Source of the DNA: Bacteroidota bacterium
GTDB taxonomy: Bacteria; Bacteroidota; Bacteroidia; Chitinophagales; UBA8649
NCBI GenBank assembly: GCA_002862745.1
Contig: PKDX01000019.1
Coordinates: 1-42,964 of the forward strand
Direction of reading: 5' to 3'
Length of the DNA: 42,964 nucleotides
Made by a program: the position numbers and the translations under genes. This document shows positions 1-7,852 of the stretch, one piece after another (positions within the stretch are counted from its first letter, which is position 1; every line of letters begins with the position of its first letter). Under the pieces are notes generated by a model, which did not search any database, was not told the DNA's origin, and saw only the letters and a program-made list of their open reading frames with translations.

Positions 1-1752
1 AATATTGTTCCAGCCGATAACCTGCGATAAGCCTACGTTGTACTTCTCAGCAATCACGCTTAATACCTCGCCAGACTTCACCGTATGAATCACCTTAGAC
101 GACGAGGACGAAGAAGATGACGAACTGCTTGAGGAAGCCGTTCGATTATCTGAATAAACTGTCAGTCGCTGACCTATTGCTAGTATTGACTCTTCGGTTA
201 GACCGTTCCAAGCCATAAGCTTAGAGAGCCCAACATCGTATTGCTCAGCGATACTACCCAAAAACTCTCCCTCTTCTACGACATGCGTAATGCTTTGATT
301 TGAATTCGAAGCGCTTGAACTATTGCTAGTCGACACAGCGCTACCAGACTCTACTGTTGGGGGTGAATGAGCGCGGATGGTTGTATTGGAAGTAGTAACT
401 TCTTGGGTCGTTGTACTTGTAGCAGCAACCTCTAGAGTTTGAAATGCTAGAAGGCGTTCTGCTTGCGCTTCTCTAAAAGCCTCTACGTCAACTTCTGTGG
501 ATTGAGATGTCCCTTCATTTAGAGCAATAAGCAGGGCCTCTCCTAACATGTCGGCCTTAAGGCGATATCCTTTAGGTTTCAAAGAGATAAGATCAAGATT
601 GGCCAATCTTCTCGATTTCCAATCTAAAATTCTAGTCCTTCCCCCAGAAGCCCAAAACCAATCATACAATAGGCAGTCCTTCTCTTTTGCTATCGCATGA
701 AGCAAGGCTGAATACTCTTCGGTTACCGCTACATTTTCTTGTTTACTGCGATACATATCTTGACCTGACACCAATAAAATGGCTGCATTGGGACATGCAC
801 GGTTGACCTTAGCAATCGTTCGGCTTATGTTTTTCTTGGTGAAAGGACCTAAGACATCTCGCCCACTTAGTTCGGCCATGGAAAAATCAAGGATGATCAA
901 ATCTGGATTAAGTGCCGATAACTGGGCACTGAACAATTCTGCATTAAGTATTCCTGCATACCCAGAACCTTTAACGCCTAGAGAATGATAGACTAGTCCA
1001 GAATCTTCAGCAGAAAGAAGGTTAGCCCCATGAAAAATAAAACCTGATTGACTTTGTGCCGATTTTTGACACATCAAGGTAAACTGGCGTTCGAATGGGG
1101 GTATGAGCGCTTCTAAGTAACCTAAATCTGTATTCATTGAAGAGGGCTGAATAAGGACGGTATCTTCGCCAGAAACCCACAAAACATCGAAACTATTGCT
1201 TGGCTCACAAAATATCTGAAGCCTCATAGGCCGTTGAGGAAGCTTTTCTTGAAATTCAAAAGAAATCTGAGCATTTTCATCAGCTGTTTTAGCCACCATG
1301 CCGGACACCCCTCTAGGAATGGACGGTGTCGTTCTACTGGCAATATCATATCGCCATGCCCCTTTATGACTGCTGGTGTAGTATACTGAACTAAAGGTGC
1401 ACGCAATCGAATGGGGTTGAACCATTCCCCAGCCGCCATCGCCAGCTTCTTCCTGAAGAATTTCTTGTAAGTGTCCAGTGAACCTATCCGCTTGAACATG
1501 CTCGTCGCCAAAGTGAGCAATAACGAATGCATTGCTATCCGCATTATTCCAAGCTTCTCTCACATGAGTAAGTGCACTATCTGAATAACACTGGATGACA
1601 TTCGCTTCAGGATGAAGGAAAGGGTAGTCATCGGCGCGTGAAAAGCTTCCTTGAGCCCAGGCAGAATTGGCCGACAAGACAGAGCATCCAACGACCATTA
1701 ATAAAGAGGAAGCTAGGCTCCTATGAGGTGACGGTTGAGTATATTTCTCCAT
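1..1752 (-). CDS. LysM protein with degenerate SGNH/GDSL-like domain (partial, C-terminus beyond left edge)
   Basis: I translated this by hand; it is open for 584 codons from ATG at 1752 to the window edge. Residues 1-36 look like a signal peptide ending near SANSAWAQ, so the product is probably exported. Residues about 75-410 resemble the SGNH-hydrolase-like domain common in Bacteroidota LysM proteins: a GDxHxQAD-type block, a QL..L.PDLIIL block and a KGYRLKADMLGEALL block. A Thr/Ser-rich linker leads to one LysM repeat (about 488-531), a run of Ser (about 538-551) and the start of a second LysM (from about 555). The SGNH catalytic residues are replaced: Ser by Glu84, Asn by Ala293, and the His position near Asp387 by Ser390. 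It is therefore probably a peptidoglycan-binding pseudoenzyme. Domain family is fairly sure; role is unknown. A partner SGNH enzyme or MBOAT acyltransferase could lie to the left, which I cannot see. Confidence 0.85.
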   Translation of the reverse strand, partial: MEKYTQPSPHRSLASSLLMVVGCSVLSANSAWAQGSFSRADDYPFLHPEANVIQCYSDSALTHVREAWNNADSNAFVIAHFGDEHVQADRFTGHLQEILQEEAGDGGWGMVQPHSIACTFSSVYYTSSHKGAWRYDIASRTTPSIPRGVSGMVAKTADENAQISFEFQEKLPQRPMRLQIFCEPSNSFDVLWVSGEDTVLIQPSSMNTDLGYLEALIPPFERQFTLMCQKSAQSQSGFIFHGANLLSAEDSGLVYHSLGVKGSGYAGILNAELFSAQLSALNPDLIILDFSMAELSGRDVLGPFTKKNISRTIAKVNRACPNAAILLVSGQDMYRSKQENVAVTEEYSALLHAIAKEKDCLLYDWFWASGGRTRILDWKSRRLANLDLISLKPKGYRLKADMLGEALLIALNEGTSQSTEVDVEAFREAQAERLLAFQTLEVAATSTTTQEVTTSNTTIRAHSPPTVESGSAVSTSNSSSASNSNQSITHVVEEGEFLGSIAEQYDVGLSKLMAWNGLTEESILAIGQRLTVYSDNRTASSSSSSSSSSSSSKVIHTVKSGEVLSVIAEKYNVGLSQVIGWNNI

Positions 1753-4867: not shown

Positions 4868-5941
4868 TCATTGTTTTTTTCCTGCCAGCTGACCGCAAGC
4901 AGCATCGATATCATGGCCGCGACTTCGTCGGATATGCGCCTCTAACCCATTGTCTGTCAATATTTCTAAAAACCGGCGTGAACGTGTTGGCGTTGATCGT
5001 TCTAAGGACACTCCCTTCACCGAATTGTACTCAATAAGATTGATGAAGCAAGGAAATTCTTTAGCAATCTTAATAAGATTCCTCGCATCCTCTTCTGAAT
5101 CATTGAACTTTTGAAAGAGGATATACTCCAGCGTTACTTTTCGTTTCGTGTGAGCATAAAATTCCTTGATAGAATCCACCACTTCTTCAATAGGATTGCT
5201 TTTGTTAATGTCCATAATTTGAGCTCGCTTGGCATTGGTGGCTGCATGGAGAGACCATGCCAAATTAAACTTACTGCCGCGTTTCGCTAGTTTCCTAATG
5301 CCTCGAGCAATACCCACTGTAGAGAGCGTAATACGCCTTGAAGCCATATTCATCGCTTCTTCGGCTGTAAGAATTTCTGTAGCTCGAAACACTTCTTCCA
5401 AATTGAGCAAGGGTTCTCCCATCCCCATAAACACAATATTTGTGAGTCCTCTTCCAAATTGATCTAGAGCAAGCTCATTCAAGCCTCTAACTTGATCTAC
5501 AATTTCAGAAAAGTCCAAATTGCGATCGCGCTTAAGTTGTCCTGTGGCACAAAATGAACAATGAAGAGAGCAACCAACTTGAGAGGAAATACAGGCCGTA
5601 ATCCGCTTACTTGTTGGAATGATAACCCCTTCAACCGTCCGACCATCGTGGAGAGTAAAGCCAACTTTAATCGTCCCATCTTGACTTTTCTGGACAATAT
5701 CTACTTCTGCAATGTGAAACACAAACGACTCCTCAAGCCTGGCCCGAAGACTTTGGGGAAGATTTGTCATCATATCAAAATGATCTGCTCCTTTAATCCA
5801 AAGCCATTCAAAAATCTGCTTGGCTCTAAAATGAGGCTCATTGTATTGCTCAAGCCATTGAGCTAAGTCTTCGCGAGCCATCGTGCGAATATTTATCTTC
5901 GGTACAGGCATGCTATTTGCTGGTGGGTTTACCGTATCCAT
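4868..5941 (-). CDS. rlmN: Dual-specificity 23S rRNA A2503 / tRNA A37 C2-methyltransferase
   Basis: RlmN is a radical-SAM enzyme that methylates C2 of A2503 in 23S rRNA and A37 of certain tRNAs. The 357-residue product has CSLHCSFCATG (CxxxCxxC cluster, near residue 125), the preceding SSQVG, VFMGMGEPLLN (SAM binding), the ITLSTVG motif and the LAWSLHA motif. The C-terminal Cys of DIDAACGQLAG (methyl-carrier/acid-base Cys) is intact. Length is normal. Its first 13 bases overlap the 3' end of the EnvC-like gene, which indicates one transcript with the envelope genes upstream. Assignment is secure. Confidence 0.97.
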   Translation of the reverse strand: MDTVNPPANSMPVPKINIRTMAREDLAQWLEQYNEPHFRAKQIFEWLWIKGADHFDMMTNLPQSLRARLEESFVFHIAEVDIVQKSQDGTIKVGFTLHDGRTVEGVIIPTSKRITACISSQVGCSLHCSFCATGQLKRDRNLDFSEIVDQVRGLNELALDQFGRGLTNIVFMGMGEPLLNLEEVFRATEILTAEEAMNMASRRITLSTVGIARGIRKLAKRGSKFNLAWSLHAATNAKRAQIMDINKSNPIEEVVDSIKEFYAHTKRKVTLEYILFQKFNDSEEDARNLIKIAKEFPCFINLIEYNSVKGVSLERSTPTRSRRFLEILTDNGLEAHIRRSRGHDIDAACGQLAGKKQ

Positions 5942-7152
5942 GCTTCTGGATTTAGCTTAACACTGTTCTTCCAAATTTCCAAGTGTATTCTTGGAGAAAG
6001 GGCTCCCAATCCCTCGCCATAAACCGATCCAATAACCTGACCTGAAGAAAGAGCTTGACCCCTTGAAACCATGGGCCTAGATAGATTGCTATATACAGTG
6101 AAATATGGGCCATGTTGTACAATCACAGTCCAGTGAACATTGGTCATTTCAAAAACACGGGATACTTTTCCATTGTACAAAACACGCACTTCTTCATTTG
6201 GCCTTGTTTCAATATCTATTCCATTGCTTTGGATAAGTAGTGAGGGCATATCCGGATGACTTACTTGGCCAAAACGGGTAACGATACGTCCGTTGTTCAC
6301 CGGCCATGGAAAACGCCCCTTGTTGGCTGCAAAAGAATTTGCTAATTCAACGTCTACCGGGTCGGGCGCGGTCAAGCTGGCCTGCCTTTCTCGCGCATTC
6401 CGTGCTTCCTCTTCTAAAATCTCTTTGAGCCGAAGATCTAGGGCGCTGATGTTGGCCTGGATCTCCGCTTTAATCTTTTGCTGTCGAGCCATATCGTTTT
6501 CCAATACGAGCAAGGTAGCGTTATACTGATCTTCCGATGCCTTGAGAAGGCGTTGTTCTTCAAGAAGTTCGGCTTGCTTGGCTTCTAAAACTGTTATTTG
6601 TGCCTTTACCTCATTACGGAGTAAAACTAAATAGTCTTGAATTTCTTGTAATGCACGCATTTTGTAATTCAACACCCGAGATAAATTTCCCATAAACCGA
6701 TAGCGCTGAAAAACATCTTCAAATGAGGTAGAGGACAAAACATACATTGACCGGGTCTGTGAAACTCGATAACGATAGGCCATTCGAACAGCACCGGCAC
6801 AATTTCCTTTAAGTCGTTCATATTCATTCCTGGTTTTGTTCTCCTCTTCTTGCAAGGAGTCTAGGCTGTAGGCTAATTGAAAACTATCCTGCCGGAGGAG
6901 ACTAACCAAGGAGTCTTGAATTTGCCGCTGAGTGTTGAGTAACCTTAATTGATTAATCGTCACTTGTTGTTGGCTTTGAAGGCGTTGTATTTCTCCCTCT
7001 AAATTTGCTAAATCACTTCGTAGTTTATCCTGCTTGCTCACAATGGATGATGAAGTCTCAGGCTCTTGTGCATGCAACCAACCAGCCACCCAAACCAAGC
7101 CCACCACACAGAAAAGAAAGCTAAAAAACAGGCTATGGTTGAATGACTTCAT
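5929..7152 (-). CDS. EnvC-like murein hydrolase activator (coiled coil plus degenerate LytM domain)
   Basis: The product starts MKSFNHSLFF with a signal peptide ending near WLHAQ, followed by a long coiled coil (residues about 35-275, rich in Gln, Glu, Leu and Arg). It ends in an M23/LytM domain (about 280-407). The LytM zinc ligands are missing: NGIDI replaces HxGIDI, YSNL replaces YxHL, and RIHLEIW carries Arg at the first His of HxH. That is the EnvC/NlpD pattern of proteins that activate amidases at the septum rather than cut peptidoglycan. I chose ATG 7152 because the signal peptide starts there; an upstream start (7182) only adds ten residues inside the DUF4292 gene. It overlaps that gene by 20 bases. 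Confidence 0.88.
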   Translation of the reverse strand: MKSFNHSLFFSFLFCVVGLVWVAGWLHAQEPETSSSIVSKQDKLRSDLANLEGEIQRLQSQQQVTINQLRLLNTQRQIQDSLVSLLRQDSFQLAYSLDSLQEEENKTRNEYERLKGNCAGAVRMAYRYRVSQTRSMYVLSSTSFEDVFQRYRFMGNLSRVLNYKMRALQEIQDYLVLLRNEVKAQITVLEAKQAELLEEQRLLKASEDQYNATLLVLENDMARQQKIKAEIQANISALDLRLKEILEEEARNARERQASLTAPDPVDVELANSFAANKGRFPWPVNNGRIVTRFGQVSHPDMPSLLIQSNGIDIETRPNEEVRVLYNGKVSRVFEMTNVHWTVIVQHGPYFTVYSNLSRPMVSRGQALSSGQVIGSVYGEGLGALSPRIHLEIWKNSVKLNPEAWIR

Positions 7153-7852
7153 AGGATGAAGGTACTTCAAAAGGAAGGTCATAGGGCCCTTTCTTTTCCA
7201 AGGAATTTGTGGATAGAGAAACTTCTAAGCCCTCTGCTTGGATAATCAAGGTGCGATCTTTGGCCCAAAGCCCTCCTTCTAATTCTCCGACATTCATCCA
7301 TTGAAGCGCAGCCCATTGCTCAATAGAGGGCTCATAAACTTCTAGGTAATTTACCCCTAGAGTATCCGATGCAATAATCTTAACCATCAATCCCGCCGGA
7401 GACAACCATAGAGAGTCTTCTTTTTGAAAATCGTCTTGCTGTAATACCGCACCAAACATCCAAGACATCATCAAATCATAATCACTAATGGCTGGCAACC
7501 CAAGGGCGTCAAGTCCAGCTATAGACCCCGAATAATAGGTCCGTTCCAAGCGATTAAGCGCTTGTACTGAATCTCTGGAAAACAAAATCCGAGCCCCCTC
7601 AAATCCAAACTTGGTAAACTGTCCCCAAACCCTGTCGCCACCATTGGTTCTAAACTTTGCTTTAAATCGCTGTTGCTGATTATCGTAGAGAATAGTGGCC
7701 GAGGTGGTCATCTCTAGTGTATCCAAACCCTTTAGCCAGTTGGTCTCTAAAGAAGCAGGCTGCCGCCGTTGCTTAAGTACCTTACACTGAGGCATCAATA
7801 AACCCGCAACGAACACTAAGAGTAGCGCACCATATGATATACTTTGACGCAT
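7133..7852 (-). CDS. DUF4292 family lipoprotein
   Basis: This 239-residue protein opens with a signal sequence (MRQSISYGALLLVFVAGLL) and a lipobox-like LMPQC, so it is probably lipid-anchored after cleavage at Cys23. The body is beta-rich (TSATILYDNQQQRFKAKFR, GFEGARILFSRDSVQALNR, GLMVKIIASDTL), matching the DUF4292 family of Bacteroidota, which structurally recalls LolA/LolB-type lipoprotein carriers; that functional hint is inference. In many Bacteroidota a DUF4292 gene sits between a TPR gene and an M23/EnvC gene, as here. Its start codon overlaps the TPR gene's stop by one base. Function is unknown. Confidence 0.8.
   Translation of the reverse strand: MRQSISYGALLLVFVAGLLMPQCKVLKQRRQPASLETNWLKGLDTLEMTTSATILYDNQQQRFKAKFRTNGGDRVWGQFTKFGFEGARILFSRDSVQALNRLERTYYSGSIAGLDALGLPAISDYDLMMSWMFGAVLQQDDFQKEDSLWLSPAGLMVKIIASDTLGVNYLEVYEPSIEQWAALQWMNVGELEGGLWAKDRTLIIQAEGLEVSLSTNSLEKKGPYDLPFEVPSSYEVIQP

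Follow-up and report, generated by a model that had tools for sequence, protein, structure and literature searches.

An Ape1-type protein with LysM repeats that has lost its catalytic residues and may act as a peptidoglycan-binding adaptor

The gene and its domains

We have analyzed a stretch of DNA of 42,964 nucleotides (the window) comprising the entire contig PKDX01000019.1, which is C17 of its assembly. At its left end, on the reverse strand, lies a gene of the Ape1 type with LysM repeats (positions 1–1752). It begins with an ATG at position 1752, and its 3′ end is lost at the end of the contig, giving an open reading frame of 584 amino acids that lacks its C terminus. Complete orthologues of 609 and 603 amino acids are present in two genomes from sister species of the same genus, and judged from these the window protein is short by about 20–25 C-terminal residues. 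Over the stretch searched the orthologues are ∼90% and ∼88% identical to the window protein; the corresponding records are Saprospirales bacterium SP157 and Bacteroidetes bacterium UBA12012. The names of these nearest records suggest a marine habitat for the genus. The gene is therefore common to three species of one genus, all sampled as fragmentary metagenome assemblies, and the gene order around it is identical. No copy was found in three further genomes of the same family that were searched.

All the features of the protein are encoded on the reverse strand. A signal peptide (approximately residues 1–34; positions 1651–1752) was read from the sequence, with an AWA/Q-type cleavage site that is kept in the three species. 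It is followed by an Ape1-type SGNH domain with an inserted β-sandwich (residues 42–420; positions 493–1629), assigned using AlphaFold, Foldseek and profile comparison. The insertion is a strand-rich stretch of the model (approximately residues 120–250; positions 1003–1395), where Neisseria Ape1 carries its CBM35-like module; the β-sandwich inserted into the SGNH domain of Ape1 has been described as CBM35-like (PMC6174289). The first LysM repeat (residues 490–532; positions 157–285) was identified by Pfam PF01476, and the second (residues 553–584; positions 1–96), which is cut by the contig end, by Pfam and comparison with the sister orthologues. The Pfam match to LysM comprises two repeats with E = 3.4e-17 and 62.5 bits, against a cut-off of 20.9. 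The first-pass annotation of this DNA had described a signal peptide and LysM repeats, and both are present. The SGNH/GDSL domain scores 30.1 bits, just under the cut-off of 32.9, as expected because its conserved blocks are damaged.

The AlphaFold model of the window protein has pLDDT 91.8 and pTM 0.92. Its best Foldseek match in the PDB is 4k3u_A (E = 9.5e-27, TM 0.77/0.84), and the five best matches are Ape1 structures from two species, aligned over the whole length with TM 0.70–0.77 by query. The first-pass annotation had proposed folding the protein and superposing it on SGNH hydrolases as a check, and the SGNH fold is borne out by the model. A profile built from 45 relatives matches the Ape1 of Neisseria (E = 3e-53) and of Campylobacter (E about 1e-36). 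From the profile and whole-length fold matches to Ape1 we therefore conclude that the window protein, β-sandwich included, belongs by descent to the Ape1 lineage.

In one of the sister species (G002; L038:8757-10586) the two LysM repeats are near-identical, matching at 110/114 nucleotides compared with 68/114 in the other species. This points to recent homogenization of the repeats.

Active-site positions

The published catalytic residues of Ape1 are Ser80, Asp366 and His369 (PMC6174289). Residues Ser62, Gly218, Asn250, Asp348 and His351 of the Ape1 chain become, on addition of 18, Ser80, Gly236, Asn268, Asp366 and His369. We take Gly236 and Asn268 to be the oxyanion residues of Ape1, consistent with the sequence blocks. 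In the profile alignment these five positions fall exactly on residues 84, 262, 293, 387 and 390 of the window protein, and the conserved blocks align to Ape1 without shift. The catalytic positions were thus assigned by alignment, rather than by residue-wise superposition of coordinates.

By alignment and profile match, the nucleophile Ser80 is replaced by Glu84 (positions 1501–1503), and the oxyanion Gly236 is kept as Gly262 (positions 967–969). In block III, Gly-Thr-Asn268 is replaced by Ser291-Met292-Ala293 (positions 874–882), with Gly293 in one sister species. In block V, Asp366-x-x-His369 is replaced by Asp387-Leu-Ile-Ser390 (positions 583–594). The exchanges of Ser80 for Glu84 and His369 for Ser390 occur in all three species, and the counterpart of Asp366 is Asp in two species and Asn in the third. 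Among the five Ape1 positions compared, only the oxyanion Gly236 survives throughout the genus. The first-pass annotation had named Glu84 in GDEH, Ala293 in FSMAEL and Ser390 in DLIS as replacing Ser, Asn and His. Alignment with relatives and sister species shows these residues to have been correctly placed; the list was incomplete, missing the change of the block III Gly to Ser291 and the Asn387 of one sister species. Judged from the alignment, esterase chemistry has very probably been lost in the genus.

These positions are otherwise almost invariant. In 94 relatives, drawn from a public scan and from genomes of the order, the columns for Ser84, Gly291, Asn293 and His390 are 100% conserved, and that for Asp387 is 99% conserved; one of the public-scan patterns accepted no nucleophile residue other than Ser and Glu, and a second pattern was independent of this site. 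In comparison with these relatives, the Ser, Gly291, Asn and His are replaced solely in this genus. A whole-protein profile search of 398 genomes of the order gave the same result, with these residues kept in all further relatives read. The domain has 26 columns that are ≥90% conserved in the 94 relatives, of which 20 are kept in the genus and six are changed. The six include all four of the Ser, Asn, Asp and His columns (hypergeometric p about 0.001). The catalytic columns have been hit more often than expected by chance. Five relatives (L014, L016, L018, L019 and L021) have GGS instead of GDS in the nucleophile block, with the catalytic Ser kept.

Selection, descent and genomic context

The ratio dN/dS for the SGNH domain is 0.120, 0.076 and 0.092 in the three species pairs, comparable to the values for four neighboring genes (0.061–0.156). 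The lowest values within the gene are those of the second LysM repeat (0.011–0.064); for the first repeat, synonymous changes are saturated between two of the pairs. Glu84, Ser291 and Ser390 are unchanged in the three species while their codons change synonymously, and His85, beside Glu84, is also invariant. Positions 292 (Met/Val), 293 (Ala/Gly) and 387 (Asp/Asn) vary within the genus. Since dN/dS resembles that of the neighboring genes, the gene is maintained and not decaying. The suggestion of the first-pass annotation that this is a maintained pseudoenzyme is therefore well supported at the level of sequence and predicted structure: the catalytic residues are gone, while the predicted fold, signal peptide and LysM repeats are kept under purifying selection. 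The conservation of Glu84 in orthologues, which it had put forward as a check, was found in both sister species.

In a phylogenetic tree the genus lies inside a clade of LysM proteins mostly having DHHW partners (21 rows, support 100/98), with L057 and L058 as its closest neighbors at moderate support. The stem branch of the genus corresponds to 1.25 changes per site, and the tips to 0.04. A long stem with short tips records a burst of change followed by constraint.

The OAP (O-acetyl-peptidoglycan) cluster of Neisseria has the order patA-patB-ape1, and Bacteroides and Porphyromonas have OAP-type clusters with ape1b and ape1c, in which adjacent SGNH genes accompany an MBOAT (Weadge et al., 2005; PMC1199599). 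Among the relatives of the window protein, an MBOAT gene is present in the retrieved flank at 70 of 78 loci. The usual further gene encodes either a DHHW protein, the motif being present at 16 loci, or another SGNH protein, and this layout agrees with the OAP clusters just described. Clusters of MBOAT, DHHW and Ape1-LysM genes in Bacteroidota fall within L057–L084, as 15 full loci and one cut locus; examples are L058:3147-7641 and L068:2424-6757. They resemble OAP clusters with a DHHW protein in place of PatB. In one genome such a cluster is apparently split over two contigs (G016:C49:1, Ape1-LysM; G016:C139:46396-49191, MBOAT and DHHW).

The pseudo-Ape1 gene lies outside such a cluster. As its own contig ends there, the genes to its left were read in the two sister genomes, where it sits between rho-serS-glyA and rpmH-rnpA-alanine dehydrogenase (names read from the sequences), with no MBOAT (PatA) or transferase neighbor. 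We therefore reject the proposal of the first-pass annotation that an active esterase or acyltransferase partner is encoded to the left. Nor was an intact partner found elsewhere. No second Ape1-type gene was detected in the window's own genome, only a remote 878-amino acid GDSL protein on C25, and searches of the genomes of the three species gave no DHHW protein and no close MBOAT. The MBOATs of the genus are only 36–43% identical to the cluster type, compared with ∼60% identity among cluster-type MBOATs of the other genomes compared. Of the two in the window's own genome, one is surrounded by glycosyltransferase-like genes on C8 and the other is on C24; their neighbors of ∼330 amino acids belong to other families. 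The absence of partners could partly arise from gaps in assembly, though this is unlikely across three genomes. An orphan position does not by itself explain the catalytic loss, because the triad is intact in L062 and L082 although neither has a flanking MBOAT. The Ape1-like gene of L062 (L062:3730-4890) has a long low-complexity linker (819 amino acids).

Possible role of the protein

We suggest that the protein is a pseudo-esterase of the periplasm, derived from a peptidoglycan O-acetylesterase of the Ape1 type that carried LysM repeats at its C terminus. The ancestral gene would have belonged to an OAP-like cluster, together with genes for an MBOAT acyl exporter and a DHHW transferase; the genus would then have lost these partners or left them behind, and lost the chemistry, but kept the protein. 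A role in peptidoglycan binding is plausible, via the LysM repeats, perhaps the β-sandwich, and the old substrate groove. The protein might then serve a peptidoglycan-cutting enzyme as an adaptor or activator with no catalytic activity of its own, by analogy with the mutually stimulating complex of LtgA and Ape1 in Neisseria (PMC7083599); the Ape1 of that model system is active. Taken as a whole, the retention of an orphaned, dead Ape1 as a peptidoglycan-binding adaptor is the reading that we favor, and we regard it as reasonably probable.

Other readings must be weighed against this. The protein could be purely an anchor that depends on its LysM repeats and signal peptide alone, with the SGNH part serving as a passive spacer. 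The second LysM repeat does have the lowest dN/dS of the gene, but the SGNH part is constrained like housekeeping genes (0.08–0.12) and retains most of its family-conserved columns, and we think this unlikely. We consider it less likely still that the old pocket has gained new chemistry or a ligand site on peptidoglycan around the Glu84-His85 pair and Ser390, with Glu84 serving some other reaction as its general acid/base or as a ligand. The invariance of Glu84, His85, Ser291 and Ser390 despite high synonymous divergence would be consistent with this, but the drift of their pocket neighbors at 292, 293 and 387 is not usual in an active center. Were it true, the pocket would have been rebuilt in a genus without the usual O-acetylation genes.

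Orphaned from its operon and stripped of its catalytic residues, the gene might also be taken for a relic on its way to becoming a pseudogene. However, the frame is open in three species and the confidently predicted fold accompanies a dN/dS of about 0.1, which contradicts decay; we reject this reading as very improbable. For a gene at a contig end in a fragmentary assembly one might suspect misassembly or a chimera, or that the motifs were misaligned and a complete triad lies elsewhere in the chain. Such an artefact is scarcely credible, and is rejected on the evidence of the sister genomes, since residues and gene order are identical in three assemblies, the blocks align unshifted and the fold matches Ape1 over its full length.

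The favored reading, a dead Ape1 kept as an adaptor, may be compared with known systems. Like the Ape1 (CE3) proteins of Neisseria (4k3u) and Campylobacter (8gkd, 8gld), the window protein has the SGNH fold with β-sandwich and the oxyanion Gly. It differs in the replacement of the nucleophile Ser, oxyanion Asn and His, and partly the Asp, in its additional LysM repeats, and in the position of its gene outside an OAP cluster. The Ape1b and Ape1c proteins come from the same phylum, with SGNH genes beside an MBOAT as in many of our relatives, an equivalence set by cluster layout and not by direct sequence comparison. They are, however, putative esterases encoded in a patA cluster (PMC1199599), whereas the gene of the window is an orphan with its active-site residues lost. 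The Ape1-LysM proteins of Bacteroidota MBOAT-DHHW clusters, such as L057 and L058, share 34–37% identity and the same domain order and are nearest in the tree; these retain both triad and operon. The open-access papers searched gave no example of a catalytically dead Ape1.

Ape1 is usually regarded as an enzyme. A dead Ape1 under strong selection, with its usual O-acetylation partners gone, suggests that Ape1 has an additional structural role in the wall, and this fits the complex that it is known to form with a lytic transglycosylase. The genus offers a natural case of separation of function. The window's own genome retains SLT-LysM (C5), glucosaminidase-LysM (C13) and EnvC-like M23 proteins, candidate partners for the proposed adaptor. 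An EnvC-like protein with coiled coil and M23 domain is encoded in the window itself (positions 5929–7182), in the same conserved gene block as the pseudo-Ape1 gene. By eye, SNGIDI seems to stand where its first metal-binding His motif would be, as is the case in amidase activators that lack catalysis.
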